A stretch of 64,000 bases of DNA, taken from NCBI RefSeq assembly GCF_008831285.2, contig NC_045145.1, positions 19,776,802-19,840,801 of the forward strand. Reading direction: 5' to 3'. The DNA comes from Nymphaea colorata. Lineage: Eukaryota; Streptophyta; Magnoliopsida; Nymphaeales; Nymphaeaceae. The translations under genes and the position numbers were made by a program. Positions 2,681 through 57,540 of this stretch are shown piece by piece. The notes beneath the pieces were generated by a model. That model saw only the letters and a list, made by a program, of their open reading frames with translations. It had not been told where the DNA came from and ran no database searches. Within the stretch, counting starts at the first letter, position 1. Every line of letters starts with the position of its first letter.

Positions 2681-3238
2681 GTCCACATCCGACGAATCAT
2701 AAATTTGATTTTATAGTTTTAAAATGTAACAGTTTTAACTTTTCTGGCTCATGAAATGTAATTCGGAAGTCGAATTTTGAAGAACTTTTTACATTGCTAT
2801 AACTCGATGGATTTTTACATTTGTGCGTGTAGTCAGATTTATGAAAATGTGGCTGCGCATACGATACGAGACATATTTGGAGAGCCCATTTTCACATTTC
2901 TTGATAGAAATATTCGTCATATCTATATTTTACATTCTTACTCGTTTTTTGTAAATTCATTAATAATAAAAATGTGATCTAAGGCATTATGAGTCTATAA
3001 GAACTAAAAATATTTTTCCTCAAGTGTGTAACCAACATACATTTTAAAAAATTAATAATTAATTATTAGAATTTCTTAGCTTACAAGGCCATCTTCTATG
3101 TTCAAAAGAGATATAATTTTTATATTAATTTTCATAATTTTATATATGAAAAACACATCTACATAATTTGTTTTAAAAGAAATGTAAAAATATGTAGTTA
3201 GACAAAACCTATTAGCTGGTCTATTCACACCTTTGCAT

Positions 3239-3241
<3 letters not shown>

Positions 3242-3313
<72 letters not shown>
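3242..3313. repeat. (TA)n microsatellite
   Basis: 72 bp of uninterrupted TA dinucleotides, ending at TATCGACATT. Confidence 0.97.
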
Positions 3314-3316
<3 letters not shown>

Positions 3317-3599
3317 CATTCTTTTATAGTAGGCAAATGGTGGGTACTTTATTGGGCGTAGGCGAGAACCTAGTCCGGAACAAACATAGCCCACATGCAA
3401 TGGGTTCGGACCCACCCTAAAGTAGAATGAGATCTGATCCTGTCAGACTCAGTTTCTTAAGACAAAAGCAGCTAAGTGTGTACTTGAACAGATTTATGTT
3501 TCGCCTTAGCCCTTCAAGCAAGGTACTGTGTTCTCTCTTGTATTTCTTGAGATAGGCACATCTTCATGGGAACTTAAGATTGTGGAATAACTGTACTCA

Positions 3600-3880: not shown

Positions 3881-6230
3881 AAGCTGGATGAAGCATGACC
3901 TTTTTTTACATTCCCAAGGAAGATAACATTATTTTCTTATAAAATTGTTATCAAAATTCATGTTCTAAAGACATTATTAAGTTTTTTTCTACCGGAATTG
4001 AATGCACGATGTGATCAGCGATACATGTTTCTAAATAAACCTGAACATAATTTCATGATGTATTATATTATAAAAATGTGGTCCAAGAACGCGATCGATG
4101 TCTTTCTTAGCAAAAGATGAAGAATTCATGAAGAATCTAATCCACTTGAGCACATTTTGGGCCACATATGGGCCTTGGTCTTCACTGATATGATTCTTTC
4201 TATGTTCCTTTGGTGCATTAGTGCTTGGCCATGGTTGTTCGTACGCTGACGAGCACAAGAGACGCATAAAGTTTTTACAATATTCCAGAGGCGAAAATGG
4301 CGCAGCTTCCACTAGCTAGTTGAAAGCAACAGTCCTGGGAAGACGACAGTGGAAGAGTTAGATCTGGCTTTTGGAAGCTACGGGCATCCAACGGAAGCAC
4401 CATGTGGCCAAAGGACAGCCGATAAAGCAGCTGAGGTGACCCCTCAGAAAAACAAAGGACTACTGCAACATTTTTACTGTAGCTGTACGAGCAGAACAAA
4501 CTGCATAACATTCTCCGCCATCAAAGTTTTTTACATGGTTTGTATTATCTGCACATAGTGACATGTTGCAGACAGCAACTTTTGCTTGAAGTTCTTTTAA
4601 ATTTCTTCTAGTTGGTGTTCTGAAAATTAAGCAAGTTGCTGTAGACTCCACTTTGGGCTTTCCCAGCAGCTACGGTAAGACTGAATTTGTGAAACTTTCT
4701 GCACCAAGATTCTTAGAATGGTTGCTTTTTTTTCATCCATGGCAAAAAAGAGATCGTTCCATTTGTCTGTATTCAATCGAGATATATTCCAAAAGAAGGT
4801 GGGTCACACTTGCTCACTGGTGGTACATTCATCCTCCTTAAGTTTTGTGCGATGGGGAAAGGGACCTTTTAGAGAACGCAGTAAACAGTAAAGCGACTTT
4901 GCTGCCATTGCTGCGGTGAGGTGATGCAGAACAAACATGGAAGCTCGCCTACCTGTACTGTGGAAATCATGAACTCACGAACTCCTGCGAAAGTTCATTT
5001 CAATTTGGAACAGATATGAACACTTCGGAAAGATCGCTCGCATGTCGATCGATGCTTTCCTGTACTTAGAATTTTTTGTCATTAAGGAAACAGAAGTCGC
5101 GAATATGAGAACCAGAAACCTTGAAACTTCTCTTCTTCAATGACGAATCTGAGCTTGGGAGGACGTCCCCTATAGCTTTCTCCTTTTTGAATCGCACTTG
5201 TTTTGGTTCTTTTCTGGTTCTTTTCTGCTGCAACTTCTTACTGTTTGAGTAAGAAGCAGGAGGCTCTGTCCTTCAACAGGGTGGTTTTCGAATATCACAC
5301 AAATAGTTTGTCTACCAATTACATAAAAAATATAGTTAAACAAAGTAGAGTCCAAAATAGGCTTTATAAAATATTACTATATGATTGACTCCTTGATTTT
5401 ATATACAAGTACATATAGTTACATAGATTTACATATTAGTACTCCTCCCCACTTGAGTTTATGTCTCAGCCACCGGATTGACCTAAAACAACAGCAAAGG
5501 TTAAAGCGAATCCTACTTTTCATTAAAGTTGTAGAGCCATGTTTTCTTAAATAAATAAATGAATATTGGTGGCTTGTTGGGTGGGTGGAGTTTGTCGCTA
5601 AGGAACTCTAATTTTTTCTTTTTGGGTCTACAACTAGACGTAGAGGCACTAAAATGATCCGCATTCCTAAGCAACTTTTCTTTTCTGCAAGTGAAAATTT
5701 TAATATAACATTTCTATTCAACAAAGTCCATAGTGTCTTTCATTATGTAAACGGAAGACGCATTAAAAAAAGTATCTCATGTACCGAGACGTTCGAAATT
5801 GACTTGATACTCATCCATTCTTGGAGTCACTTTGAAGCTTTTTGGATTTGGAGTTCCAGACAAATGCTTAATCCAATGAAGTGCAGATAGATTAGTTGAT
5901 GCGTACTGAACGAAGAACGAGGAAATATATAATTTCATATTCGCGTAGACAAGATGCAGGCCACTTGGGATATCCACTTCCAATACGTAAATTATTAACA
6001 TGTTTGTGGTTTTGAGCATAAATCCATTCGTTGACGTAACATGTTTGGCATCTTCAAGAAACCTCCAATTATATTCGGGACATGTGGAGGCACAAACTCT
6101 TAGCTAGAACCACTTTAATGGTAAATACAAAAGTTTTTTGTTTGAACACAGCCAAAGGTATACATCGCTTTACTTTCTTCTTCTGCTTGCAGCTTGCAGG
6201 TAAATTGAATGTGACCCATATTGGTTTACA
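3881..6230. other. Intergenic, nothing firmly recognised
   Basis: Short open frames on both strands, none with a family signature or a consistent exon chain. No terminal inverted repeats were noticed. Confidence 0.45.
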
Positions 6231-6633
6231 TGTATGTAAAAAATATTACCAAGAAATTCATTGTTGTCTTAGCATATGATATTTTGTATGTATGTAAAAA
6301 CTACTACCAAGAAATTCATTGTTGTCTAAGCATATGATATTTTGTATGTATGTAAAAACTACTACCAAGAAATTCATTTTTGTCTTAGCATATGATATTT
6401 TGTATGTATGTAAAAACTACTACCAAGAAATTCATTGTTGTCTTAGCATATGATATTTTATGTGTATGTAAAAACTACTACCAAGAAATTCATTGTTGTC
6501 TAAGCATATGATATTTTGTATGTATGTCAAAACTACTACCAAGAAATTCATTGTTGTCTAAGCATATGATATTTTGTATGTATGTCAAAACTACTACCAA
6601 GAAATTCATTTTTGTCTTAGCATATGATATTTT
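6231..6633. repeat. 58-bp minisatellite, seven tandem copies
   Basis: The anchor AAGAAATTCA starts at 6251, 6309, 6367, 6425, 6483, 6541 and 6599, exactly 58 bp apart each time. Units differ by few substitutions (TTGTTG/TTTTTG, GTCTTAG/GTCTAAG, TGTAAA/TGTCAA); the first copy is the most diverged. There are no unique spacers, so it is a tandem array and not CRISPR-like. It lies outside any gene I could support. Confidence 0.95.
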
Positions 6634-9556
6634 GCAACTAGTTTTATGTTATTCAGCTTGAATTTCGTGTAACTTTTCTATACTCGAATAATTGAATACC
6701 GCTGTGCGTTGCGATTGTCTGAAGGGATCATGATCAAGTTTATTTGGATTAGCTTTTCGTACGTAAGAAGGGAAAAGGAAAAAGATGGATCCACCGATGC
6801 CCTTGATTGACGCAAACAGAACGATGGCATTGTTGTTTTCGTCCTTATTTTAGACAGATGCTTCGATCTTCAATCAGCACATGGCTTTTATCAATGCATG
6901 TGTCCTCGAGTCCATCACACTCCTTAATTGAAGCTCATGTTTTGTGTATTTTACATGTATTAAGTTAAAGTGGTGTAGTTATTAATGCACATATCTGAAA
7001 CCTTTTCTGCATATGACCTGAATTTAACAAACCTAAAGTAGGAGCAGGCTATTTATTAAGCTTCATTTTGAGGTGGAGCTCACATTTTACATGAGAAGAG
7101 GGGACAGACTTGAGAATAGAACTGTATACCAATTTCAAATATAGAGGTGAAATTTTTATACATCCATGAAATGTATAAAGATTTTTAAGTTAAAATCTCC
7201 ATAAATGTTTTAGTGTTACGGATTCGGAAGAACTCAATGATTTCCCTTATCATCAAGTAAAAGTACAGATCCTGTGGCCTACTTGTGGGAACTTTGCAAG
7301 GAAGTCAAAAAGGTCATCAAGTGAGCGGTCCGGTGTGCTCCAGTTTCAGCTTTCCCAAATTTCTAAAGCTCGAACTATGCATCACTATTTTCTCTTTGAA
7401 AGACAAATATGCATCAGTGCTTCCTGTGGAGAAAAGAAGGAAGGAATTTATTTCAAATTTCTAGCTTTTTGACTGCTGGTGCTTCTGGCAGAATTTTTCC
7501 GTAGAAAGTTAATGATGAAAATGAAATGTCATGAGCTTTCTGCTCTGACCATCATATGTTTGGTTTCTTCTATGTTAGCATTTTCTGAAAAGATTGATAC
7601 ATACATACATACATATATATAAGATAGTCGCTAGGATTGTAAATGGGTCAGATCTGCCACGAAGGTTTTTTGCAGGTTCATCTTGTTCTATCCTCATGAT
7701 CTCTAATATACTTCTCTGATCTGCTCCATCTGCATCACCTACGTAACTTGTTCACTAGAGAAGAAAGATAAAACAATCAACTGGATCGACCATCTACTCA
7801 AATATACAAATTTTTTGTTTCCTTTAAACTTTTCCAAAGATCCTGCAATGCCAAACAAATTAAAAAGCAAATTTCAACACAGCCAAAAGCCTTATGCTTT
7901 ATGAAGAACCGTGTATGCATAAACTGTGCACAAACGCACACACAGACATTTTCATGTAAGAACATTAAAAGCCAATTTATATTAATGAAGGCAAACAAAT
8001 AAATAACCCACTCTTTTGGAGACGGTGCAGGCCTGTGCCGAAGAAACACCGGCATGGAGGCCCGTTCGAATTTCAAATTCAATTATTCGACTGCACATCG
8101 AGGTTGAGCCTACGATGAAGAAGTAAGCAAAGAAGGGTAATCGTCTATCTATTAACGTCTGTCTCCTTCTCGACATTAATTTCTTATGTCATAAATGAGA
8201 CCGATCATTTTTGGCAAATGCAGTTCCCTCCTGCTGCAGGTCCCTTTTGGTTTTAATGTTCATGTTCCTCCGGCTTCTTAGCTGCTGCAATAAGTAAAAG
8301 CACCGGCAATTTTTTCTCCCAATACAAGTAAACTCCCCTTCTGTAAATTTTTCCAACCTCTCTAGATTTGCCTGTGGACCTCATAATTTAGCGGGAGAGA
8401 GAGGGTTGAGTTCTGCTGCTTTTACTGCCCAAGTTTAACTGTTCCACTTTCTTGGAATTGTACAGACTCATGAAAGAGACACAAATTATGGATGGATTTT
8501 ATTAGAACAGGAGCGGTGGTCCATGCATAGGCAAACAACAACACCCAAATTGAAAGGCCACACTTTCATTGGTTTGGCCTATTGTTGAACTCCACATGCA
8601 GCACCATACTAATGGCAGCACTCATCACCAGCTGTATGGAGCTCCGCTTGCTGCATCCAAAAGTTTTACATCACTATATATATATATAACGCACACACAT
8701 TCTTGTTTTTCAACATTATATGTGTGTGTGTGTGTGCGTGCGTGCATGCTTCTAAAGCAATGAAGCTTCCAGTATTTAGGCAACAGTGAGTTGGTCCATT
8801 CTTTTTGCTACCCAAGAGGAAAAGCTTGGTAGCACCATCTTCCTTACCCATTATGTTATGTTGGTAGGACTCAAATTGGCAGAACTTTGCAACAGTCGCC
8901 ATATATGTTGAAACAGGAAGAGCTGCATGTTCCACGCTAGCTTCCAAATGAACTACGTCTCATTACTTCGGTCTGGTCACTTTAATTTACATGAGCTAGC
9001 TAAAGTAAAAGTCGATACTTCCGTCGTGTCTCTATTAATGACTAGACCTTTTTTACACTTTTCTTTTCAAGTAAAATTATATTATCACAAGCAACATTCC
9101 ACTATATTGGATAATAAAGTTACTGCGATGGACAAGTTTGAAAAGACATGGACAAATTTAAGAAGAGTGGGAATGCAAGTGGGTCTAGTTTTAATTGCAA
9201 TAGAACACGTCCAAACTCTGCAGAATTTTGTCCACCAAGAGCCTTTTACACAAGAAAAGATCGAATGCTTGGGTCGAGTAGTTGAGTAGCCCCTTTCGCA
9301 TGCCTTGAAAGGGTTCCATCTCGATCCCAAAGGCCAAATTGCTTTTAGTAATTTTTCTTCTTCTTCTTCTTTTTTGTTTTCCATGCGAAGAACCAGAGAG
9401 CTCCAACTGTTTATAGATGTAATTCTGAACAGTGGAAAGATAAAAACTGAGAGCAAATCCTCCGTCTCATGTGGATGGCGTGACATACTGAAGTGAAACG
9501 AGAGCACAAGAAGGAAGAACAATAAGAAATAAAAAAAGGGAATTGACAGAGGCAAT
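6634..9556. other. Intergenic; one (TG)n tract
   Basis: No gene recognised. A (TG)n tract with GC variants occupies 8719-8744. Open frames here, including the 120-codon one at 8927-9289, show no domain and have AT-driven composition. Confidence 0.45.
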
Positions 9557-40440: not shown

Positions 40441-40945
40441 GCCGATGCTTCCGGTGCAAGCAATGAGAAGAAGGATCCGCCATCGCGAGATGCTCGCTCT
40501 GCCGCAGAAACGATGCTTCCGGTACAAGAGATGAGAAGACGGAGTGGCCCTGCGTTCCGTCGGTGTGGGCGGCAAGCCGGCAACGGCCTGTCCGCCATCG
40601 CGATGATCGCTGACGGTAGGCAAGAGTCTTTGTGTGTGTGTGTGAATCAAGTGCTTCTATGTTGCTTAAACGCGAGCTGAGAGGGAAGATTTATGCGAAC
40701 TCTGGTTCTTGATGTCTTTGCTGCAGCAGCCTGCCGCAAAACGTTGCTTCCGGTACAAAAGATGAGAAGACGGATTGGCCCTGCGTTTAGTCGGTGTGGG
40801 CGGCAAGCCGGCAACGGCCTGTCCGCCATCGCGATGATCGCTGACGGTAGGCAAGAGTCTTTGCGTGTGTGTGTGAATCAAGTGCTGCTATGTTGCTTAA
40901 ACGCTAACTGAGATGGAAGATTTATGCGAACTCTGGTTCTTGGGT
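40441..40945 (+). repeat. Tandem duplication, 232-bp offset, with a third partial copy
   Basis: GCCGCAGAAACGATGCTTCC at 40,501 recurs as GCCGCAAAACGTTGCTTCC at 40,733, and nearly everything to about 40,945 repeats, including GTGTGGGCGGCAAGCCGGC and ATCGCGATGATCGCTGACGG. A shorter diverged piece at 40,441-40,480 (GCCGATGCTTCCGGTGC then ATGAGAAG) looks like a third partial copy. The high identity means a recent event. Confidence 0.93.
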
Positions 40946-41259
40946 TCTTGATGTCTTGAACTCCTGTTTGCGTGTTTTCTTTTGATGAAAGTATACAACA
41001 ATGAGTTAGTTAGGGTTCCTACACGTGTTTCTCTCATTTCTGTCATGGACCGTTGATTTTGGTGGCTATGTTGATAATGTGGGGAAAACTGGTTCGTAAT
41101 TGTAGGGTTTCAAGGTCAGCGACTCAGCGTCTTGGATTTCGAATGGGGCAGCAACATGTCTAGATTGGAGAAAGAACGGGCGAGGCTGTACCTGGCCACG
41201 CATCATCAAATTTGCGGCACTACGATGGACTAGTTACACTTGCTGGAGTCATTAAGTCG

Positions 41260-41558
41260 ATTGTGATTCTTGCTGGCAACGAGGAGATTTTGCAGGTAGA
41301 GGCATCTGGCATGCCTGTGTTAGTTTTAACCGCATTTTCCTTTTTTCGTGCTCGATCTTCTGTGTAGTATTTCTTGAAATTAGTAGTTGGTTGTAAATTC
41401 AAGTAAAGTCTATTGTGATTCTTGCTGGCAACGAGGAGATTTTGCAGGTAGAGGCATCTGGCATGCCTGTGTTAGTTTTAACCGCATTTTCCTTTTTTCG
41501 TGCTCGATCTTCTGTGTAGTATTTCATGAAATTAGTAGTTGGTTGTAAATTCAAGTAT
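41260..41558 (+). repeat. 152-bp tandem duplication
   Basis: ATTGTGATTCTTGCTGGCAA starts at 41,260 and again at 41,412. The two units are almost identical through GGTTGTAAATTCAAGTA, with a TTCTTGAAA/TTCATGAAA difference. It is very young and lies in the same locus as the 232-bp duplication. Confidence 0.95.
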
Positions 41559-43200: not shown

Positions 43201-43639
43201 TGGCTACAAGCAGAAAATTGAGCAATCTAATGTATGATAATGCATTGTAAAGTGAAGCATTACGTTAGTATGCTGTTGAAAATATTCATTTGTACAGCTA
43301 GTGTTAGCATATGTAATGTGGTTTCTTGCACCAGTACTTCCATGGTGATTGCACTTGTACTCTTTAGTAGAAATCAACTAGTTTTCTGGTTTAATCTAAT
43401 CTAATATTTTGATTTTATGATCCAAATGAATATATTCTCATGATCGACATCAAAAGTGTGTGCTGTTAACTATACATTTCTTGACATGCCTTAATAGTTT
43501 ATGCATACTTCAGGTCTGAAGAACAACACTTTTTAGACTTAAGTTTAGAATTGACAGCTGACATTTTTTATTGTGAGATGGAGTATAATGTAGCAGTGTT
43601 AATTTTGCATGCGTATGTGTGTTTATGTGGACATTTTTT
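43201..43639. other. Transition into the AT-rich array
   Basis: Non-coding AT-rich sequence. The first recognisable satellite words appear at about 43,640. Confidence 0.5.
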
Positions 43640-45599
43640 ATTTTGATTTTTTTTTCAATTTTTTTGCATTTTGAATTAAACATAGAAAACCTTTTGAACT
43701 TTTTTGCGCTTTTCTAAATCTTTCATATTCATGAGCAATTACAGAGTTTTCCACTCCTAGATATTTTGAAAGTTGTGTTATTAATTTTGGCGCACTGAAA
43801 ATTTCAAAGATTCTTATCAAACCTTTTAAAACAGGCTATCATATTCTTTTTTTCTTTTGCCAACTATTTTCGGAATCCTTATAATATTTTTTACAGGTTT
43901 TTTTACTTAATAATGTTAGAGTTTTCTAAATCATTAACAGTCTTGTGTATTTATGAAGTTGTGAACTCATAGATATTTCCAAACGTGTATTTAAATATTG
44001 ATTAAACGTAAATTTTGAAAATTTTTTATCAAACATCTTTAAAACATTTTCCGATTTTAGAATTCCTTTTTCAAAATTTTTGCATTTTGAACTACAAGTA
44101 AAAAACATTTTGAACTTTTTTGCGCTTTTCAAAATCTTTCATATTAATGAGCATTCATAGAGTTTTGCACTTGTGAATATTTTGAAAGTTGTGTTAAAAT
44201 TTTTATCACACTTAAATTTTCAAAGGTTCTTGTCAAACCTTTCAAAAGCATACCATCATATTCTTTCCTTTTTTTCTCAATGTTTGTAGAATCTTCTATA
44301 TCCTTTTTACACATGTTTTAAACTTATTTTTCTTAATTTTTTATGCGTTTAACTTGTAGTTGAGATCATTTTTAATTAAACTTTTTTAAATCTTTGAAAG
44401 TCTTCATCTATAAAGTTTTGAACTCATAGATATTTGGTAACGCGTGTTCAAATTTTGATGGAAAGTAAATTTTGAAAGATTTTTATATACATGTTAAAAA
44501 CATATTCTGATTTTGAAATTTCTTTGTCAAATTTCTGCATTTTGAAGTATAGTATAGGAAACATTTCAATTTTTTTTGTGCTTTTCTAAATTTTTTAAAT
44601 CAATGAGCATTCATAGAGTTTTGCACTCGTAACTATTTTGAAAGTTGTGTCAAATTTTTTATCACACTTAAAATTTCAAAGTTTATTACCAAACCTTTTA
44701 AAAAAAACTAACTATGATACTCTTTTCTTCTTTTGCCAAATATTTGTGGAAGCATCCTTAATCCTTTCTACATGGTTTTTAAACTGTTTTTCTCAAATTT
44801 TCATGATTTTTAACCTAAAGTGGGATTATTTTTAATAATTTTAAGTTTTTCCAAATCATTAGCACTCTTACAATTTATGACGTTTTAAATTCATAGATAT
44901 TTGTCAACATGTGTTTAAATTTTGATCAAACTTAATTTTTTTAGGGTTTTAACTAAACATGTTAAAATCAATTTTTGATTTTGAAATTTCTTTTTCAAAT
45001 TTTCTGCATTTTGAATTAAGTATAGAAAACCTTTTGAACTTTTTTGCGCTTTTCAAAATCTTTCATATTCATGAGTAATTATAGAGTTCTCCACTCGTAG
45101 ATATTTTGAAAGTTGTGTTATCATTTTAAAAAGATATTTTAAAAGTTCTTATCATATCTTTTAAAAACAAACTATCATATTCTTTTCTTCTTTTGCCAAA
45201 TATTTTCGGAATCCTGCTAATATTTTTTTACAGTTTTTTTAACTTAATAATGTTAGGGTTTTTAAATCATTAACACTCTTGTGTATTTATGAAGTTTTGA
45301 ACTCGTAGATATTTCCAAATGTGTATTTAAATTTTAATTAAAAGTAAAATTTTAAAGATTTTTATCAAATATGTTCAAAACATTTTCTGATTTTAGAATT
45401 TTTTTTTCAACTTTTTGGCATTTTGAACTAAGTTTTAAAAACATTTCAAACTTTTTTGCGCTTTTCAAAATCTTTATATTAATGAGCATTCATAAAGTTT
45501 TGCACTTATGAATATTTTGAAAGTTGTGTTAAAATTTTTATCATACTCAAATTTTCAGAGGTTCTTGCCAGATCTTTTAAAAATAGACTGTCATATCTT

Positions 45600-48480
45600 T
45601 TCTTTTTTTGCCAAATGTTTGTAGAATATTTCTAATCCTTTTGAGTTTTGACACACTTTTTAAATTTATTTTTCTCAAATTTTTATGATTTTAACATGTA
45701 GTTGGATCATTTTTAATTAAACTTTTTTAAATCATTGAAAATATTAGTGTCCATAAAGTTTTGAAGGAGTGTTTAATTTTTGAAAAAAATGTTTATCGAA
45801 CATGTTAAAAGCATTTTTTTTATTTTTAAATTTCTTTGACAAAGTTTGTGCATTTTGAAGTAAGTATAAGAAACATTTTGATTTTTTTTGTTTTTTTGTT
45901 TTAAATCTTATAAATTAATGAGCATTTTGCAGTCTTAACTATTTTGAAAGTTGTGTTAAATTTTTTCACATTTAAATTTTCAAAGTTTCTTATCAAACCT
46001 TTTAAAAAAACTTACTATCATATTCTTTTCTTCTTTTGCAGAAGCTTGTTTAATCCTTTTTACATGGTTTTTAAATGTTTTTCTTCAATTCAATTTTTCA
46101 TGATTTTTAAGCTAAAGTTGGGATCATTTTTAATAATTTTAGGTTTTCTGAATCATTGTTGCATATTTATGACGTTTTAAACTCATAGATATTTGCAAAG
46201 GATGAAACATAAATTTTGAAAGCATTTAGTCAAACATGTTAAAATCAATTTTTTGATTCAATTTTTTTGCATATTTGAATTAAGTATGAAAAAACTTTTG
46301 AACTTTTTTCTGCTTTTTTTAAACCTTTCATATTAATGAGCAATTATAGGGTTTTCCACTCGTCAATATTTTGGAAGTTGTGTTAAAATTTTTAGTGCAC
46401 TTAAATTTTCAAAGAATCTTATTAAACCTTTTAAAGACATTCTATCATATTCTTTTTTGCTTTTGCCAAATAGTTTTAGAATCTTTCTAATATTTTTTTA
46501 CACTGTTTTTTACTTAATAATGTTAAGGTTTTCTAAATCATAAACCTTGTGTACTTGTGAAGTTTTGAACTATTACTCATAAAGATTTCCAAAAGTGTAT
46601 TTAAATTTTGATTAAAGTAAATTTTGAAAGATTTTTATCAAACATGTTCAAAACATTTTCTGAGTTTAAAATTTCTTTTCAAATTTTTGGCATTTTGAAC
46701 TAAGTTTTAAAAACATTTCGAACTTTTTTGCACTTTTCAAAGTCTTTCATATTAATGTTCTTTTCAAATTTTGGGCATTTTGAACTAAGTTTTAAAAACA
46801 TTTCGAACTTTTTTGCACTTTTTAAAGTCTTTCATATTAATGAGCATTTACAGGTCTTTCATTTCAAACTTTTTGAATTTTTTTGTATTTTTTTCATATT
46901 AATGATAAATTATAGAGTTTTTCACTACTAGTAGACATTTTGAAAGTTGTGTTAAAATTTTTGGTGTATTTAAATTTTTAAAGATTCATATCTTTCCTTT
47001 TTTTGCCAAATGTTTGTAGAATATTTCTAATCCTTTTGAGTTTTGACACACTTTTTAAATTTATTTTTCTCAAATTTTTATGATTTTAACATGTAGTTGG
47101 ATCATTTTTAATTAAACTTTTTTAAATAATTGAAAATATTGAGTGTCCATGAAGGAGTGTTTAATTTTTGAAAAAAATGTTTATGGGAACATGTTAAAAG
47201 CATTTTTTTATTTTTAAATTTCTGTCAAAGTTTCTACATTTTGAAGTAAGTATAAGAAACATTTTGATTTTTTTTGTTTTTTTGTTTTAAATCTAATTTA
47301 GCATTCATAAAGTTTTGCAGTCTTAACTGTTTTGAAAGTTGTGTTAAATTTTTTCACATTTAAATTTTCAAAGTTTCTTATCAAACCTTTTAAAAAAACT
47401 TACTATCATATTCTTTTCTTCTTTTGCAGAAGCATGTTTAATCCTTTTTACATGGTTTTTAAATGTTTTTCTTCAATTCAATTTTTCATGATTTTTAAGC
47501 TAAAGTTGGGATCATTTTTAATAATTTTAGGTTTTCTGAATCATTGTTACATATTTATGACGTTTTAAACTCATAGATATTTGCAAAGGATCAAACATAA
47601 ATTTTGAAAGCATTTAGTCAAACATGTTAAAATCAATTTTTTGATTCAATTTTTTTGCATATTTGAATTAAGTATGAAAAAACTTTTGAACTTTTTTCTG
47701 CTTTTTTTTAAACCTTTCATATTAATATTAATGAGCAATTATAGGGTTTTCCACTCGTCAATATTTTGGAAGTTGTGTTAAAATTTTTAGTGCACTTAAA
47801 TTTTCAAAGAATCTTATTAAACCTTTTAAAGACATTCTATCATATTCTTTTTTGCTTTTGCCAAATAGTTTTAGAATCTTTCTAATATTTTTTTACACTG
47901 TTTTTTACTTAATAATGTTAAAGTTTTCTAAATCATAAACCTTGTGTACTTGTGAAGTTTTGAACTATTACTCATAAAGATTTCCAAACGTGTATTTAAA
48001 TTTTGATTAAAGTAAATTTTGAAAGATTTTTATCAAACATGTTCAAAACATTTTCTGAGTTTAGAATTTCTTTTCAAATTTTTGGCATTTTGAACTAAGT
48101 TTTAAAAACATTTCGAACTTTTTTGCACTTTTCAAAGTCTTTCATATTAATGTTATTTTCAAATTTTGGGCATTTTGAACTAAGTTTTAAAAACATTAAC
48201 ATTTTCTGAGTTTAGAATTTCTTTTCAAATTTTTGGCATTTTGAACTAAGTTTTAAAAACATTTCGAACTTTTTTGCACTTTTCAAAGTCTTTCATATTA
48301 ATGTTATTTTCAAATTTTGGGCATTTTGAACTAAGTTTTAAAAACATTTCCAACTTTTTTGCACTTTTTAAAGTCTTTCATATTAATGAGCATTTACAGG
48401 TCTTTCATTTCAAACTTTTTGAATTTTTTTGTATTTTTTTCATATTAATGATAAATTATAGAGTTTTTCACTACTAGTAG
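45600..48480 (+). repeat. Recent duplication of a 1.39-kb block inside the array
   Basis: A block starting near 45,600 is repeated at an offset of about 1,388-1,395 bp with very few changes. TTGAGTTTTGACACAC is at 45,641 and 47,036. The frame that starts at 45,944 recurs at 47,332, differing mainly at one Leu/Met. The right part of the second copy contains an extra internal repeat of about 110-150 bp near 48,140-48,300. The other array units are much more diverged. Confidence 0.88.
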
Positions 48481-51400
48481 ACATTTTGAAAGTTGTGTTA
48501 AAATTTTTGGTGTATTTAAATTTTTAAAGATTCATATCTTATTTTTGGAATCTTTTTAATATTTTTACACGGTTTTTAGCTTAATAATGTTAAACTTTTC
48601 TAAATCATTAACACTCTTGTCTACTTACTCTTGCGTATTTGTGATGTTTTGAACTCATAGGTTTTCTTCTTTTGCGAAATATTTTTGGAATTTTTCTAAT
48701 ATTTTTACACGGTTTTTAGCTTAATAATGTGAGAACATTATTAACACTCTTGTCTATTTACTCTTGTGTATTTGTGATGTTTTGAACTCATAGGTATTTC
48801 CAAACGTGTATTTAAATTTTGATCAAATGTACATCTAAAAAGATTTTGTCAAACATGTTCAAAACATTTTCTGATTTTAGAATTTCTTTTTTCAGATTTT
48901 TCTTTTTTAATAAAGTTTTGCACTTGTAGATTGTAAATGTTTTGAAAGTTGTGTTAAAATTTTTATCACTTGAATTTTCAAAAGTTTCAAAAGTTCTTTT
49001 GTAGATTGTAAATGTTTTGAAAGTTGTGTTAAAATTTTTATCACTTAAATTTTCAAAAGTTCTTGTCAAATCTTTAAAAACAAACTATCATATTCTTTTC
49101 TTTTTTGTCAAATATTTGTAGAATCTTTTTTTATTTTTTTGATAAATTAATGAGCATTCATAAAGTTTTCATGGATATTTGCAAACACGTGTTTAGTCAA
49201 ACATGTTAAAATCAATAATTTTTTTTTCAATTTTTTTGCATTTTGAATTACTAAAATTTTTAGTGCACTTAAATTTTCAAAGAATCTTATTAGACCTTTT
49301 AAAGACACACTGTTTTTTACTTAAAAATATTAGGGTTTTCTAAATCATAAACCTTGTGTACTTGTGAAGTTTTGATTAAAAGTGTATTTAAATTTTAAAC
49401 CATGTTTTCTAACATTATTATTTCCAAATGTGTATTTAAATTTTAGAATTTCTTTTCAAATTTTTTGGCATTTTGAACTAAGTTTTAAAAACATGTCGGT
49501 GCTTGCTTTTCATTTTTTGGCATTTTGAACTAAGTTTTAAAAACATGTCGGTGCTTGCTTTTCACTAGTAGACATTTTGAAAGTTGTGTTAAATTTTTTG
49601 GTGTATTTAAATTTTTTAAGATTCATATCTTATTATTTTCTTCTTTTGCCAATATTTTCGGAATCTTTCTAATATTTTCACACGGTTTTTAGCTTAATAA
49701 TGTTAGACTAAATCATTAACACTCTTCCATTTACTCTTCCATTTACTCTTGTGTATTTGTGATGTTTTGTTCAAATGTAGATATGGAAAGATTTTGAAGA
49801 TTTTGTCAAACATGTTCAAAACATTTTCTGATTTTAGGATTTCTCTTTTCAGATTTTTCTTTTTTTAGAACTAAGTGTAAAAAACATTTTTCAAAATCTT
49901 TTATATTAATGAGCATTCATACAGTTTTGCACTTGTAGTTTGTAAATGTTTTGAATGTTGTGTTAAAATTTTTATCACACTTAAATTTTCAAAAGTTCTT
50001 GTCAAATCTTTTAAAAGCAAACTATCATATTCTTTTCTTTTTTGTCAAATATTTGTAGAATCTTTTTTTATTTTTTTACACATTTTTTGTACTTATTTTT
50101 CTCAAGTTTTTAAGATTTTAAGTAGTTAGAATCGTTTTTAATTGAACTTTTTCTAAATCATTGAAAGTCTTTATGCATAAAGTTTTGAATTCATAGGTAT
50201 TTGGTAACGTGTGTTTAAATTTTGATCAAACTTAAATCTTTTGAAAGATTTTTATCAAATATGTTAAAAACATTTTTTTATTTTGAAATTTTTGTATTTT
50301 AAAGTAAGTATAGGAAACATTTCGATTTTTTTGTGATTTTGAGCATTCCTAAATTTTGAAAGTTATGTAAATTTTTTATCACATTTAAAATTTCAAAGTT
50401 TTTTCTTTTTTTCTTTTGCCAAATATTTGCATAAGCATCTTAATCCTTTTTAAATTGTTTTTCTCAAATTTTGATGAATTGTAATTGAAACTAAGATCAT
50501 TTTTAATAAATTTATAAATCATTGACTTTTTACGTTTTTTTAAGTTGGTTTTCTCAAATTTTTATGAATTGTAATATGAAACTAAGATCATTTTTAAATA
50601 ATTTTATAAATCATTGACTTTTTACGTTTTTTTTAAAGATCATTTTTAATAATTTTATAAATCATTGACACTCTTACATATCTTCTTTTCTTTTTTGTTT
50701 GTAGAAACTTCTTAATCTTTGTTACACATTTTTTAAACTTATTTTCTCAATTTTTTATGATTTTATCCTGTATTTTGGGACCATTTTTAGTTAAACTTTT
50801 TCAAATCATTGAAAGTCTTGGCGATCCGTAAAGTTTTGAACTCACCGGCATTTGGTAGCGCATTTATCAATAAATTTTGATCGAACGTAAATAATGAGAC
50901 TTCTATCGAACATGTTAAAAACATTTTCTGATTTTGAAATTTCTTTACCAATTTTTTTCAATTAAATATAAGAAATGAAAGAGCGAACGTAAATAATGAG
51001 AACATGTTAAAAACATTTTCTGATTTTGAAATTTTTTCAATTAAATATAAGAAATGTTTTGAATTTTTCTGTTCTTTTCTAAATTTTATTAATTAATGAG
51101 CATTCATAGAGTTTTGCACTCGTAATTTTTTTTGAAAGTTGTATTAAATTTTTTATCACATTTAAATTTTCTAAGTTTCTTATCGAACCTTTTAAAACAA
51201 CTGATTTGTCATATTCTTCTCTTCTTTTGCCAAATATTTGTGGAAGCATCCTATTCCTTTTTACGTGGTTTTTAAATTGTTTTTTTCAAATTTTCATGAC
51301 TTTGAACCTAAAGTTGGGATCATTTTTAATTATTTAAGGTTTTTCTAAGTCATTGACACTTTTACATATTTTTATGAAGTTTTGAACTGAACTCATAGAT

Positions 51401-52709
51401 ATTTGCAGTCACATGTTTAAATTTTTTTCAAATGCATTTATCGAACATGTTAAATATAATTTTTTATTTTTTATTTTTTTTCAAATTTTCTGCATTTTGA
51501 ATTAATTAAGTATAGGAAACCTTTTGAACTTTTTTGGCTTTTTAAAATCTTTCATATTATTTTTGGTGCACTTAAATTTTCAAAGATTCTCAACAAACCT
51601 TTTAAAAAACAGGCTATTACTTTCTTATCTTCTTTTGCCAAATATTTTTGGAATCTTTCTAATATTTTTTACATAGGTTGTAACTTAATAATGTTAGGCT
51701 TTTCTAAATTGATGAAGTTTTGAACTCATAAATATTTTCGAACGTGTATTTAAATTTTGATTAAACATAAATGTTGAAAGATTTTACCATACATGTTAAA
51801 AACATTTTCTGATTTTGGAATTTCTTTTTCAAATTTTTCGCTTTTTTACTTTTTTGCGCTTTTCAAAATCTTTCATATTTATGACCATTAATAGAGTTTT
51901 GCACTTGTGAATAATTTTTTTCAATTTTTTATGATTTTAATCAACATTTGGTAAGGCGTGTTTAAATTTTCATCAAACGTAAATTTTGAAAGATTTTTAT
52001 TAAACAATGTAAAAACTTCTGATTTTGAAATTTTTTGTCAAATTGAGCATTCATAGAGTTTTGTGAAATTTTTTGAAAGTTGTGTTAAATTTTTTGACAC
52101 ACTTTAATTTTCAAAGTTTCCTATCAAACCTTTTAAAAAAATTGACTTATCATATTCTTTTCCTTTTTCGCCAAATATTTACTGAAGCCTCTTAAATTGT
52201 TTTTCTCAATTTTAATATTTTAACCTAAAGTTGAGATCATTTTTAATAAATTTAGTTTTTTCTGAATCATTGATTATTTATGAAGTTTGAAGTCATGGAT
52301 ATTTGCAAACACGTGTTTAAATTTTAATCAAACGTAAATTTTGAAAGTTTTTTATCAAACATGTTGAAAACATTTTTATAATTTTAGATTTTTTTTTCAA
52401 CTTTTCTGCATTTTGAAATAAGTGTAAATAACTTTTTGAACTTGGCACTTTTTGAAGTCTTTCATATTGTTTTGAAAGTTGTAAGTTACATACGTTTTTT
52501 CTAAATTTTCATGTTTTTCAAACAAACTAGGGTTATTTTTAATCGTTATGAGCTTTTCCAAGTCTTTGCTAGTCTTGAGTGAAGTTTTGAGCTCATGGAT
52601 AATTGCAATGTCCATAAATTTATTTTAAAAACATTTTATGATTTTTGATAAAAATCAAATTTTTAAGTTTTTGGAAAAAAACTGTCATATTATTTTCTTC
52701 TTCTGTCAA

Positions 52710-52780
52710 AAATTTGAAAAATCTTCTTAATATTTTAGCTTCTCAAATTTGAAAAATCTTCTTAATATTTTAGCTTCTCT
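52710..52780 (+). repeat. Short tandem duplication at the transposon insertion edge
   Basis: AATTTGAAAAATCTTCTTAA followed by TATTTTAGCTTCTC occurs twice in tandem immediately left of the PIF/Harbinger element. Confidence 0.85.
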
Positions 52781-55510
52781 TAGAGGTCGTTTGATTGCTG
52801 TCCACTGGGACGACAGACAGGACGTCCTGTCCTCATGGACAATGGTGTTCCTTGTCCACCGTTTGATGATTTTAGGAACAGAACTTTATGTTCTTCTTGT
52901 CCGGTGTTTGTTTCGTGTGTGTCTGTTCTGTCCGTCCTGTTTGACGTTTGTATTTTTCTTGTCCGATCTATTCGTTATGTCCGATGTTTAATTCTGTCTT
53001 ACGTTTGTACTACACAAAACCTTCAATTTCAATATCTCATGTATTTATTTCCAGATAATATTTTGAATGCTTTCAATTGAACATAAAATGAATCATTCTT
53101 GAATGCCATAGTACAAAAACGGACATTTCACAATTTTCTCTATCAATGTTAACAAGTATTAACAAGTATCAAACAATTACAAAAGTATCTGATAGATGAA
53201 GCAAGGATTATTACATCGACTGTAAAAGCAAAGTACAAATACAAGTGTTTCACTTCTAAATCCCGTAAGTTTCTTGTGCAGTACATAAGGACAAAGAGGT
53301 TTAACATAATGCAATACCAATTTGGTTCTTTAGAAATAAAGTTGGAGAATGGAACAGCTGCCGTTCATGACATAATGTCGGTGTTGTGTTGTAGGTCAGG
53401 CGTCTGTTCCCAACTTCTGCTTCCCTCCTTTTGAAATCTGCTTGTAAAGACATTTTTTGTCAGCTCCTTGTGATGTTAGTAGCAAGATAACAATCTTGCT
53501 TTCTATCAACAAGAAGTTTACTTTTGGCAGGCATCAACAAGATTTTCCAAGAGAGGCAGCATGGGTTTTGAACTTTCTCCTTCAGTTTGAAAATGAAGTT
53601 GAATCCATTAGCCATGTGCTTGGGAGAATGTATAATACACACTGAGACGTGTTCCTGGTGAAGACTGGTTAAAAGTAAAAGGCCACTTAAAATTTCAAGG
53701 CCATGCTTTGCAATTAGATGTTGTTAACCTAACGTTCTCTTTTCCCCAACCATGGCCAAACTGTCCTTTAAACTTCCTCTGCTACAACTTTGGAAACATA
53801 ATTCTAGACTCATTAACCCCAAATTTCTTTGCCAGTCACAAGAAGCATACTGCCGTAAGTCAGAAGAAAAGCCTGTCCATGTAGAGAATATAGACATGGT
53901 AAAATCTTTCAAACAACCAAACCTTAGACGATCTAATGAAGCATTTTACAAGTTTTATGTCTCATCTGTTCTGAGAAGCAACTTTCAAATATACATTCAT
54001 ATTTATGATAGACCCTTACATTCTTTCATCAACGCATAAATTAAGACTGCATAAGCTTAAACTTTGACTAGTGGAAGCTTTTGAAAATAATAAAATAGGA
54101 TAAACAACTGAATGATGTTTATGTGCATGGGTAGACGGGTTCAGATCCAATTAGATTTCAACTCATTCCAGAAAGTTGCAATTCATTCCCCAGTTTCCAC
54201 AGATTGCTACGCAAATGATGTGTTTCAGATTTCGTTTTTCAGAAAAACAACTACAAAAACCGTTGGATCTTTAATCAATCTACTTAAAAACATTTGATTT
54301 TCTTCAAAATAACATTTGTTGTCCTTATATTTTCTACAAATACAACTGCAGACCTGTTTCAGTGTTTCACTTATAAATCCTGCAAGTTTCTTCTGCAGTA
54401 CATAAGGACAAAGAGGTTTAACCTGATAGTTCCATGAAGGCTGTTTTATTTTCAATAGAATTCCATTTGTCAGTTAAAATATTATGTAGCTGAGAATTCA
54501 CTGCTTTAATTTCTTTGTCAAGCTTGTATTAGGATAATATCGTCAGCTTATCTGCTTTTTCCCAGACTCTGCTAAAGTTCTTGTTTACCATCCTTTAAGA
54601 CGAGTTTTTTTTATTCTGTGAGTTCTGCTAAGCAGAAAAATAAGTTGCAAACCACTTTACCGGCATGTTTCTGCTGCCAATGAGTTGTGTACTTCGGGGG
54701 GTCTTCTTGTATCTACAGGCAGGTGCTATTTAGTTGTTCTTGTTGGTGATACTTGCAGTCCCTTAACTTAGATATCATTCAACCCTCTGGTAAATTCTTG
54801 GTGTGGTCTGACTCAAATGCGGACGTGCAGGCACGGACGCATAAGAAGCACTACTACTCACTGACGCACAAAGCAGAGAATCTGAATGAATTTAATAAAA
54901 GGAAAATTACCTAATTTTTTACATTGTAACAGAATTCTTTGTTCAAGAAGACTACTTGAAGAGAACAGTTGCAGAAGAAAAATGGTGGAAGGACTACAGT
55001 GGTTCTCCCCATAGTTGCTGCGGACTACAATTAGAAACAGGAAGCAGTACTAGAATCAGAAATAACATGCAGGAAATGGGTAAGGAAGAACACGGGGAAC
55101 TATACAGCAAACGATATATTAGATCATGCCTGAAACTTATAGTAAATTGATATTAATAACAATTTTTTAGAAGAGAAACGAATGCAATGTAAGAGTTGAT
55201 ATCTAAGGCATGGGAATTGAGATCTCCCCCTCGGTGAATGAGAATCATGCCCTACTCTTAATGAATTCCACTTCACAATTCGTAAGAGTCAGGGTTCTTT
55301 ATTTCAGCTGATAAAAGAGTTTATTAGTGAACTGATCATTAAAGCTCAAACGAATCCGCAGCTATCATGAAGTCCGGGAAAATCTTCAGTTCTATATATG
55401 CAGAACAAAGGGCAGAAGGTGGGTAGCTACATAATCGTTGATAAGAAAGAAATTAAAGCAGTGAATTCTCAGCTAGTCACTTGGATTAATGAAGGTAAAG
55501 ACATACATAC

Positions 55511-55852
55511 CTGGGCTTTGAGGTCGGTGGTGCAGAGGAGGCGGAGGAAGGTGGAGAGAGGGGAGGCGTGGAGGGAGATGGAGGGATTGTCCTTGCTGAT
55601 GAGGAAACCGAAGTTGGGATGGGTTGGCTGCAGGGGAGCAAGAATGGGTGAGAGGAGGTGGAGGTCTTGCGTCTGGTTCTGCAAGTCATTAAAAGCTACG
55701 ATTGTGAAGCTGCGGAAACGATCGTTGACGATGGAGGGGAGTTTGCCCGATTGTTGGAGCTCGGAGATGGAGGTCCACGCCCTTTGAAGGATGCATGTGG
55801 AGAGAATCAGGTTAGCCTTCGCTGTGCCCCCACTGAACTTGCAACCTTCCAT
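55511..55852 (-). pseudogene. Captured first exon of a SAG101-like (EDS1-family) lipase-like gene
   Basis: A 114-codon open exon on the minus strand starts MEGCKFSGGTAKANLILSTC and ends in CAG followed by GTATGT, a good splice donor in phase 0. AKANLILSTCILQRAWTSI matches the start of SAG101-type proteins, where a short helix with a Leu-x-x-Ser-x-x-Leu pattern precedes Trp-Ser. NFGFLISKDNPSISLHASPL matches the SAG101 block with the F-x-x-N-PS-x-S-x-H/N pattern. In plants, SAG101 pairs with EDS1 in immune signalling. The GHSLGG-like region, the rest of the lipase-like domain and the C-terminal EP domain are not found downstream, so only exon 1 and part of intron 1 are present. An in-frame ATG at 55,888 would add 12 residues. 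The frame is intact with no stop, so capture looks fairly recent or the exon is still translated. Confidence 0.65.
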
Positions 55853-55859
55853 GGCTACC

Positions 55860-56150
55860 TCGAAATTCACAGGAAGATGGAGAGACAAGAAGGGGCTACA
55901 GGGTGACGGCTAGGGCAGCTCGGGGGCGTAGATGAGGGCGGAGATGGAGGAGAAAGTAAGGTCGGGGGTGGAGAAGAGGAGAAAGGCAGGGGAGGTGGAG
56001 GCGGAGGTGGAGGAGAAGGAGATGGGGGCAGAGGTTGAGGGCTCGGGGAGAAGGAGATGGGGGCAGAGGTCGAGGGCTCGGGGTCTTCGGGGGCAGGAGA
56101 CGAATTTCGGGTTAGCTCGGAACAGACTGGGACAAAAAATTTATTTATAC
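55860..56150 (-). promoter_or_regulatory. Promoter/leader-like segment upstream of the captured exon
   Basis: On the minus strand a TATA-like GTATAAATAA lies at about 56,150-56,141, about 290 bp before the exon's ATG. Between them is a C-rich, CCNCC-type stretch (55,930-56,090). It might be a captured promoter and 5' leader or just low-complexity filler. The Pro-rich frame across it (55,867-56,316) runs over the transposon end, so it is not a real protein. Confidence 0.35.
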
Positions 56151-56270
56151 CTTCGCTCAACCGTCCGTTCTGTCCACCATGTCTTCTGTCCAACGTTTGA
56201 TGAAGAAATTTACTAAACAGGACACGCGTGTCCTGTTCTGCGTGTCCTGTGGTCATCAAACGACCTCTTA

Positions 56271-57090
56271 TATACTCTTGCTGAAGTTTGACCCAAAATG
56301 TTGTACAGTAGGACAAAATTTTCCAATTTTTGAAATTTGTTTACATTTTTTTCTAATGCTTGAAACTTTTTTTGAGTTTTTCTATGTCTTTGACAGTCAT
56401 GAACATTAATGAATTTTTGAACACATATATGTTTGTAAATTTTTGTGAAAATTTTGATCAAACTTAGCTTTGAAAATTTTTTTATTACCTTTTACAAATA
56501 TTTCATGATTTTATACAGTGTAGAAGCTTACAAACATTCTTAAAAGCGAATTGTCATGTTCTTTTCTTTTATTGTTAAATATCTGCGAAAACATCTTACT
56601 TTTTTTGTAATTCTTATGTACTCAAAAAAAGTTTTCAGTGAAAATTATTCTAAAACATGCACAATTTTTTACAAATTTTAAACTTTATAGACATTTTTTT
56701 TTCAAATTTTCTGTATTTTTAAATTAAGAATCAAACCTTTTTATGATTTTTTTTATCTTTCACATCAAGGAACATATAATGTTTTGCACTCATATATATT
56801 TTCAATGTTGTGAAAATTTTTCTCAAATTTAAATTTTCAAAGATTCTTATCAAACTTTTTTGGAAACATTTCCTGCTATTGATTACATGAATGAAGTTTT
56901 TGAAGAACCGACGGTCATAGTCGTTTCTTCTTTTCTCTATAAAAAACATTTTTTAATTTGGAAGACTTTAGATTTTATGATGTTTTTGAAAAAGTCTTGT
57001 TATTTTTTTTTTGCGAAATATTTTCCAAATCTTTTTATTTGTTGCATTTTTTTGTTTTTATTCCTAAAGTTTTTCCTCAAAATATTATAA
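56271..57090 (+). repeat. AT-rich array, continuation right of the transposon
   Basis: The same vocabulary as the main array returns (TTTTGATCAAACTTAGC, GAATTTTTGAACACATA, AAATTTTCAAAGATTCTTATC), but the units are more diverged and no periodicity is kept. It gives way to other sequence by about 57,100. Confidence 0.65.
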
Positions 57091-57229: not shown

Positions 57230-57540
57230 ATGCATTTTGACGGCCAGAGATCCCTTTCTCATTATTTCACATTATTTCTTATTCATAAAGAAGAATACAA
57301 AAGGCATTATTATGGTGGATGTTTATATTGATGACATTATTTTTAACTGGTGACAACGAGCAAGAAATTGCAGAGACCATGCTATATATTTATCATCTCA
57401 GTTATCTTAGGTATTTTTTGGGTATAACAGTTGCAAAAAGTACATACGGTGTCATTCTATCTCATACATCTATGATTTGCCAAAGGAGACTAGAATGCTT
57501 GGAGTGAAACCAGCATTCCCATGAATTCAAGATTTCATAG
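57230..57540 (+). mobile_element. Ty1-copia retrotransposon reverse-transcriptase fossil
   Basis: The frame near 57,275-57,340 reads LFIKKNTKGIIMVDVYIDDI, the copia reverse-transcriptase region around the catalytic YVDD motif, here YIDD. A single-base frameshift follows. The next frame reads LTGDNEQEIAETM and then LRYFLGITVAKSTYGVILS, matching the conserved LGP-LRYFLGIEVA-x-S-x-x-G-I-x-x-S block. The domain is decayed beyond this. No long terminal repeats, integrase or RNase H were found within reach. Confidence 0.85.

Follow-up and report, generated by a model that had tools for sequence, protein, structure and literature searches.

The window analyzed here is a 64,000-nucleotide stretch of Nymphaea colorata DNA on contig C8 of a 407.8-Mb, 783-contig assembly, which is also the genome searched throughout (contigs are cited as C1, C2, C3, C4, C5, C8, C10, C12, C13 and C14, and five related loci used for comparison as L014-L018). 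At positions 52783-56267 it carries an element with PIF/Harbinger transposon ends and, in its interior, the first exon of a SAG101-like gene. The terminal inverted repeats are perfect over 13/13 bp (GAGGTCGTTTGAT at 52783-52795 on the plus strand, ATCAAACGACCTC at 56255-56267 on the minus strand) and are flanked by a TTA target-site duplication at 52780-52782 on the left and 56268-56270 on the right. It is the single TTA-flanked perfect 13-bp inverted repeat in the window (with arms 200-8000 bp apart), and none occurred in 30 3-mer-shuffled windows. An earlier note on this DNA, made from its letters alone, had described these repeats and placed the insertion in a satellite array, and we confirm both the coordinates and the setting: self-similar, AT-rich DNA lies on both sides of the element, as the main block of a degenerate satellite array (43631-52468) and as array-like copies to the right of the insertion (56378-56868). 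Comparison of the array with itself yielded 202 similar pairs and, among the 70 listed, most were 65-85% alike.

The left PIF/Harbinger-derived end comprises the first 460 bases of the element (52783-53242) and the right, promoter-side end its last 385 (element 3101-3485, at 55883-56267). Both match many element ends in the genome, and the counts of matching ends are lower bounds because 40 of 461 candidates were scored. Element bases 1-282 are 78-90% and bases 284-460 78-93% identical to left ends elsewhere, those of transposase-bearing elements included, and the right end shows 76-86% identity to right ends elsewhere. The search for other elements with the same ends thus recovered transposase-encoding relatives sharing both of them, and this, together with a parent locus on C8 for the captured exon (described below), bears out the assignment in the earlier note to a PIF element of the Pack type with a fragment of an EDS1-family gene inside. 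Domains were scanned for in one relative, L014, which matches DDE_Tnp_4 in two stretches (1.4e-17) and Myb_DNA-bind_3 (1.8e-10), and its left 3.6-3.7 kb is common to L014, L015, L016 and L018 at 96-98%. TTA stands on both sides in five of the seven copies compared (the window element, a second copy on C2, L014, L016 and L017); L018 has GAA on one side and TAA on the other, and for L015 the stretch compared does not reach the right terminus. Elsewhere in the genome, left-type ends also occur as inverted pairs 11-13 kb apart, at C1:5446095-5457403 and C13:3974423-3987256, possibly representing elements with two left ends.

Between the two ends, about 2.6 kb of the interior comes from four unlinked loci on C5, C8, C10 and C12, each recognized by its own match. 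From left to right these are a C12 piece (53306-54334, plus strand; 84% identity including gaps, 74 substitutions in 1029 positions), a C5 piece (54341-54486, plus strand, from C5:151531-151676; 94%, 9/146), a C10 piece (54510-55370, plus strand; 83% including gaps, 74/795) and, in the opposite orientation, the SAG101-like piece (55378-55885, minus strand, from C8:21474939-21475420; 86% including gaps, 28/472), which holds a 5′ leader, exon 1, the splice donor and some of intron 1. There is no support for reading the C12 and C10 pieces as gene fragments, since both lie downstream of recognizable genes at their donor loci, the former of NDUFA9-like (complex I) exons and the latter of a receptor-kinase frame of 939 residues with Malectin-like and kinase domains. 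Among the four, the C8 piece alone is clearly genic, the other three being either non-coding or without an assigned gene, and unrecognized genes at the C12 and C10 loci are possible. The part of the earlier note's claim that concerned a SAG101-like capture therefore stands, but not as a lone capture: the cargo is a mosaic of four donors, and capture of SAG101 sequence only is rejected because the three other donors make up most of the interior. Counted by substitutions, the pieces differ from their donors by 7.2% (C12), 9.3% (C10), 5.9% (C8) and 6.2% (C5), four values that are not significantly different from one another (p 0.12), and a duplicate internal to the element has diverged by 6.5% over its 62-bp core (4/62); these similar values are as expected for captures close in time.

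The SAG101-like exon is open over 114 codons on the minus strand (55852 to 55511) and runs directly into a GT splice donor (55510-55509), the sequence at this boundary being GTATGT in the element and in the donor gene alike, so that the uninterrupted exon with intact donor site described in the earlier note is indeed present. The same note had likened the exon to the N-terminus of SAG101. When the exon alone was used as query, SAG101 was the top match at an E of 0.9, and no Pfam domain was found in its 114 residues; an exon-1 profile built from eight sequences (the element exon and seven genomic relatives) matched four PDB sequences, all of them SAG101 (best E 9.5e-9), making SAG101 the only match among solved structures and upholding the likeness. 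The parent gene sought in the same genome lies within a tandem cluster on C8, 1.64 Mb from the window copy, and tblastn gives 84.5% identity between its exon 1 and that of the element. Frames downstream of the donor exon carry the Lipase_3 and EDS1_EP domains (Pfam). For the EP domain the best match is SAG101 (1e-49, versus 9.9e-25 for PAD4 and 1.5e-20 for EDS1), and the lipase-like frame taken by itself does not discriminate (SAG101 9.3e-18, PAD4 2.7e-18).

The combination of lipase-like and EP domains that is the hallmark of the EDS1 family is absent from the element, where exon 1 stands alone; the exons for these domains are missing because the match to the donor stops within intron 1. For the same reason a complete SAG101 gene inside the element, of which the exon would be one part, is rejected. 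Another tandem SAG101 paralogue as a better donor is likewise rejected, since the other cluster members align over at most 120 bases and the donor named here over all 508 bases of the query. Of 14 EDS1_EP matches in the genome, 12 lie on C8 and the other 2 on C3, and 12 of the 14 span most of the profile; of the clusters on C8, the one at C8:21428526-21491561 is SAG101-like where tested, and the one at C8:21825940-21860002 scores lower with the Pfam model. The intron piece also contains 34 bp (55463-55496, minus strand) that are missing from the present donor locus and were not found in other cluster members, the best match outside the element covering 21 of 34 bases among the 14 loci examined, the C2 copy included.

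The joints between these pieces are legible in several places. The junction of transposon and C5 sequence stands on both sides of the C12 piece, with a left copy at 53234-53305 and a right copy at 54335-54422 (both plus strand): the left copy holds a 62-bp repeat that is 93.5% identical to 54361-54422, plus TACAAATACAA, which is present at both sites. Because this junction is found on either side of it, the C12 piece probably entered after the C5 piece had been joined to the transposon. Between the C5 and C10 pieces lies a 30-bp filler (54487-54516, plus strand) that repeats 55446-55475 of the SAG101 intron piece perfectly, in inverted orientation, the two arms lying ~930 bp apart, and the last seven bases of the filler, TTTCTTT, also occur in the C10 donor as a microhomology. 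At the joint of the SAG101-like piece with the right end, AGACA is common to both sides.

A second full-length copy is located at C2:28852091-28855622 and differs from the window copy at 43 of 3440 aligned bases (1.25%), unevenly distributed (3.8% in the right end, 13/342, and 0-1.6% in the other segments). It has TTA on both sides and two changes in its right terminal repeat, and its flanks show no similarity to those of the window copy in 1 kb per side. Each copy carries private changes, with a 7-bp insertion in the exon on C2 and, near the right end, 42 bp that the window copy lacks. No third copy was found either by C5 and filler probes (7/7 and 5/5 candidates scored) or by a SAG101-piece probe (7/7); the C5-segment and SAG101-segment probes matched nothing beyond the donor and the two element copies, apart from cluster relatives in the case of SAG101. 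Given its unrelated flanks, its own TTA pair and its divergence of 1.25%, the C2 copy suggests that the mosaic most likely moved as one unit after it had been assembled. At its own site, the C2 copy interrupts a short reading frame that begins like a signal peptide (read by eye, with the flanks translated apart).

Taken together, we consider it likely that the feature at 52783-56267 is a non-autonomous Pack-type PIF/Harbinger transposon whose four-donor mosaic was assembled by template-switching repair and later moved. A transposase-bearing ancestor would have broken internally, and repair synthesis would then have switched between ectopic templates, copying the C5, C12, C10 and SAG101-like C8 pieces between the ends that survived; the inverted filler, the short microhomologies and the duplicated flank would be the scars of this break repair. 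Since both ends were retained, the product would be movable by a transposase made elsewhere, which may have acted on it in trans so that copies landed in the C8 satellite array and at the unrelated site on C2. We infer the template-switching repair, the order of joining and the mobilization in trans from this arrangement, and the joint pattern matches that expected after template switching or patch-type repair of a break, as these are described in the portions available of two papers (PMC7407515; PMC8277862).

Several observations weigh against this account or loosen it. Thirteen of the filler bases are missing from the present SAG101 donor, so that the filler would have been copied either from the already captured piece or from a state of the donor since lost, and the joint between the C10 and SAG101 pieces consists of seven bases of unexplained source (AGTCCGG, 55371-55377). 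No obvious microhomology was seen at either edge of the C12 piece or at the joint between C5 and filler, and the short matches at the other joints are candidate microhomologies, which chance might also produce. The similar donor divergences would fit a single event, yet several events in quick succession could also have produced them. Within the window, no array copy was found that runs across the insertion point uninterrupted by the element, the putative transposases that might act in trans are recognized as domain matches in L014, and mobility after capture is indirect, being read from two copies at unrelated sites.

The relatives suggest a wider scenario that we offer tentatively, as a possibility rather than an expectation: the PIF/Harbinger family as a whole could be a serial capturer that keeps its ends and its gene block and varies its interior before the right-end promoter, transposase-bearing members included, the window element representing one template-switching burst that set the SAG101 exon directly behind that promoter. 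From ~3.7 kb after the left end to ~1 kb before the right end, the interior of L014 is unlike those of L015, L016 and L018, and the interiors of L014, L017 and L018 match several contigs piecewise. L017 is a second short member (C4:27010025-27013613) whose interior has a 94% twin at C1:42075289-42078468, and most of the L018 interior has a 98% twin on C14. Cargo of this kind would be tolerated there if it lay within a long 5′ leader or an intron.

The pieces could instead have been gathered stepwise, by neighboring insertions that fuse and are mobilized as one along with the intervening DNA, a process recurring at several loci, as in the local-hopping model for Pack-CACTA and other Pack-TYPE elements. 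That model has been published with a maize Pack-PIF example (in the accessible portions of PMC8903248), and the varying interiors of the relatives would suit it too. We nevertheless think it unlikely here, since it would take several rounds spread over four chromosomes or contigs, since 52796-56254 contains no further copy of the 13-bp end (allowing up to 3 mismatches), and since fusion does not predict an inverted templated filler or a duplicated flank. Turning from assembly to effect, the element might serve as a source of small RNAs dampening the parent SAG101-like cluster, and it does contain a short inverted repeat; we regard this as improbable, however, because that repeat is just 30 bp long with its arms ~930 bp apart, and the 5.9% divergence from the donor should weaken siRNA matching.

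The earlier note had taken the intact frame, the splice donor and a TATA-like box as pointers to a possible transcript. All three are present, and two of them carry less weight than they seemed to. The TATAAAT box (56143-56149, minus strand) has the SAG101 start as its next downstream ATG; in the window copy no ATG intervenes between them, and the unspliced frame would encode 127 residues. The same box, however, is found in the right end of all five relatives examined and of the C2 copy, beginning at base 119 from the element end in the window copy, L014, L017 and L018 and at 105-106 in L016 and the C2 copy (L015 is without its very end). The box is part of the transposon right end and not of SAG101, and in L014 the transposase and Myb-like frames lie on the strand reading away from that end. 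As for the frame, element and donor exon differ by one synonymous change (82 synonymous sites) and by 16 changes at the 260 nonsynonymous sites, a ratio of 5.2 (p 0.084) that gives no indication of purifying selection, and the C2 exon is frameshifted by its 7-bp insertion, so that coding constraint on the exon is not supported. Neutral copies simulated with substitutions alone (insertions and deletions were not modeled) stayed open in 75% of cases with 10 substitutions and in 63% with 15; with the C2 frameshift and the lack of purifying selection, this makes the open frame uninformative on function.

A fusion of transposon promoter and SAG101 sequence is plausible as an arrangement, with the box shared by relatives and both copies, the SAG101 start as first ATG in the window copy, the open frame with its intact splice donor, and the L014 frames reading in the same direction. 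That it is a functional chimeric gene, in which the right-end promoter drives either the 127-residue N-terminal SAG101 fragment or a spliced fusion that interferes with EDS1-SAG101 signaling, is to our mind very improbable, given the frameshift on C2, the lack of purifying selection and the location of the element in AT-rich satellite DNA. Most likely the cargo is decaying and has no coding function.

Other features of the window include sequence at 57300-57500 that resembles, by eye, a decayed copia reverse transcriptase fragment, a minisatellite of seven copies of a 58-bp unit at 6230-6634, and two neighboring tandem duplications at 40499-40942 (231-bp unit, 94% match) and 41254-41557 (152-bp unit, 98% match).

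Chimeric Pack-MULEs with several donors have long been known, and an element of the present kind is itself already known. The Pack-PIF class has been named in maize and rice, with an example from maize (Gisby and Catoni, 2022; PMC8903248), and judging by the sections of that paper at hand the window element resembles it in its PIF/Harbinger ends, TTA/TAA duplication, host gene fragment and non-autonomous nature; the maize example, however, carries 163 + 58 bp, whereas the window element has drawn ~2.6 kb from four different chromosomes or contigs and shows visible scars of repair. Multicopy Pack-TIRs formed with template switching are likewise a published model, and the gap-filling and FoSTeST models for animal Pack-TIRs share with our reading the template switching at microhomologies, the capture between chromosomes and, in multicopy cases, later transposition (PMC8277862); that paper concerns animals, and the word Harbinger is absent from such of its text as was available. 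Patch-mediated break repair in rice (Vaughn and Bennetzen, 2014, as summarized in the accessible part of PMC7407515) similarly involves insertions from ectopic donors and tandem duplications at the break, but its insertions measure 10-1000 bp as given there, and the summary does not link them to a transposon that moved afterwards. Turmoil-1 of C. elegans, as presented in the excerpt available of PMC2572040, is also a Harbinger element with captured coding sequence, but its capture is located within inverted repeats of 760 bp and it has a transposase. A 2026 review states, in its accessible part, that DNA transposons may take in unlinked gene fragments by a still undiscovered mechanism (PMC13317346).

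Thus, the value of this element is its unusually legible record of assembly, which speaks to the mechanism of capture rather than to immunity; its relevance for plant immunity is small unless expression is shown. Four donors, a templated inverted filler, microhomology and a duplicated flank can be read in one element present in two copies, with transposase-bearing relatives in the same genome, and with such a record in a single element, template-switching repair as a route by which PIF/Harbinger transposons may acquire host sequence becomes directly testable in related genomes.
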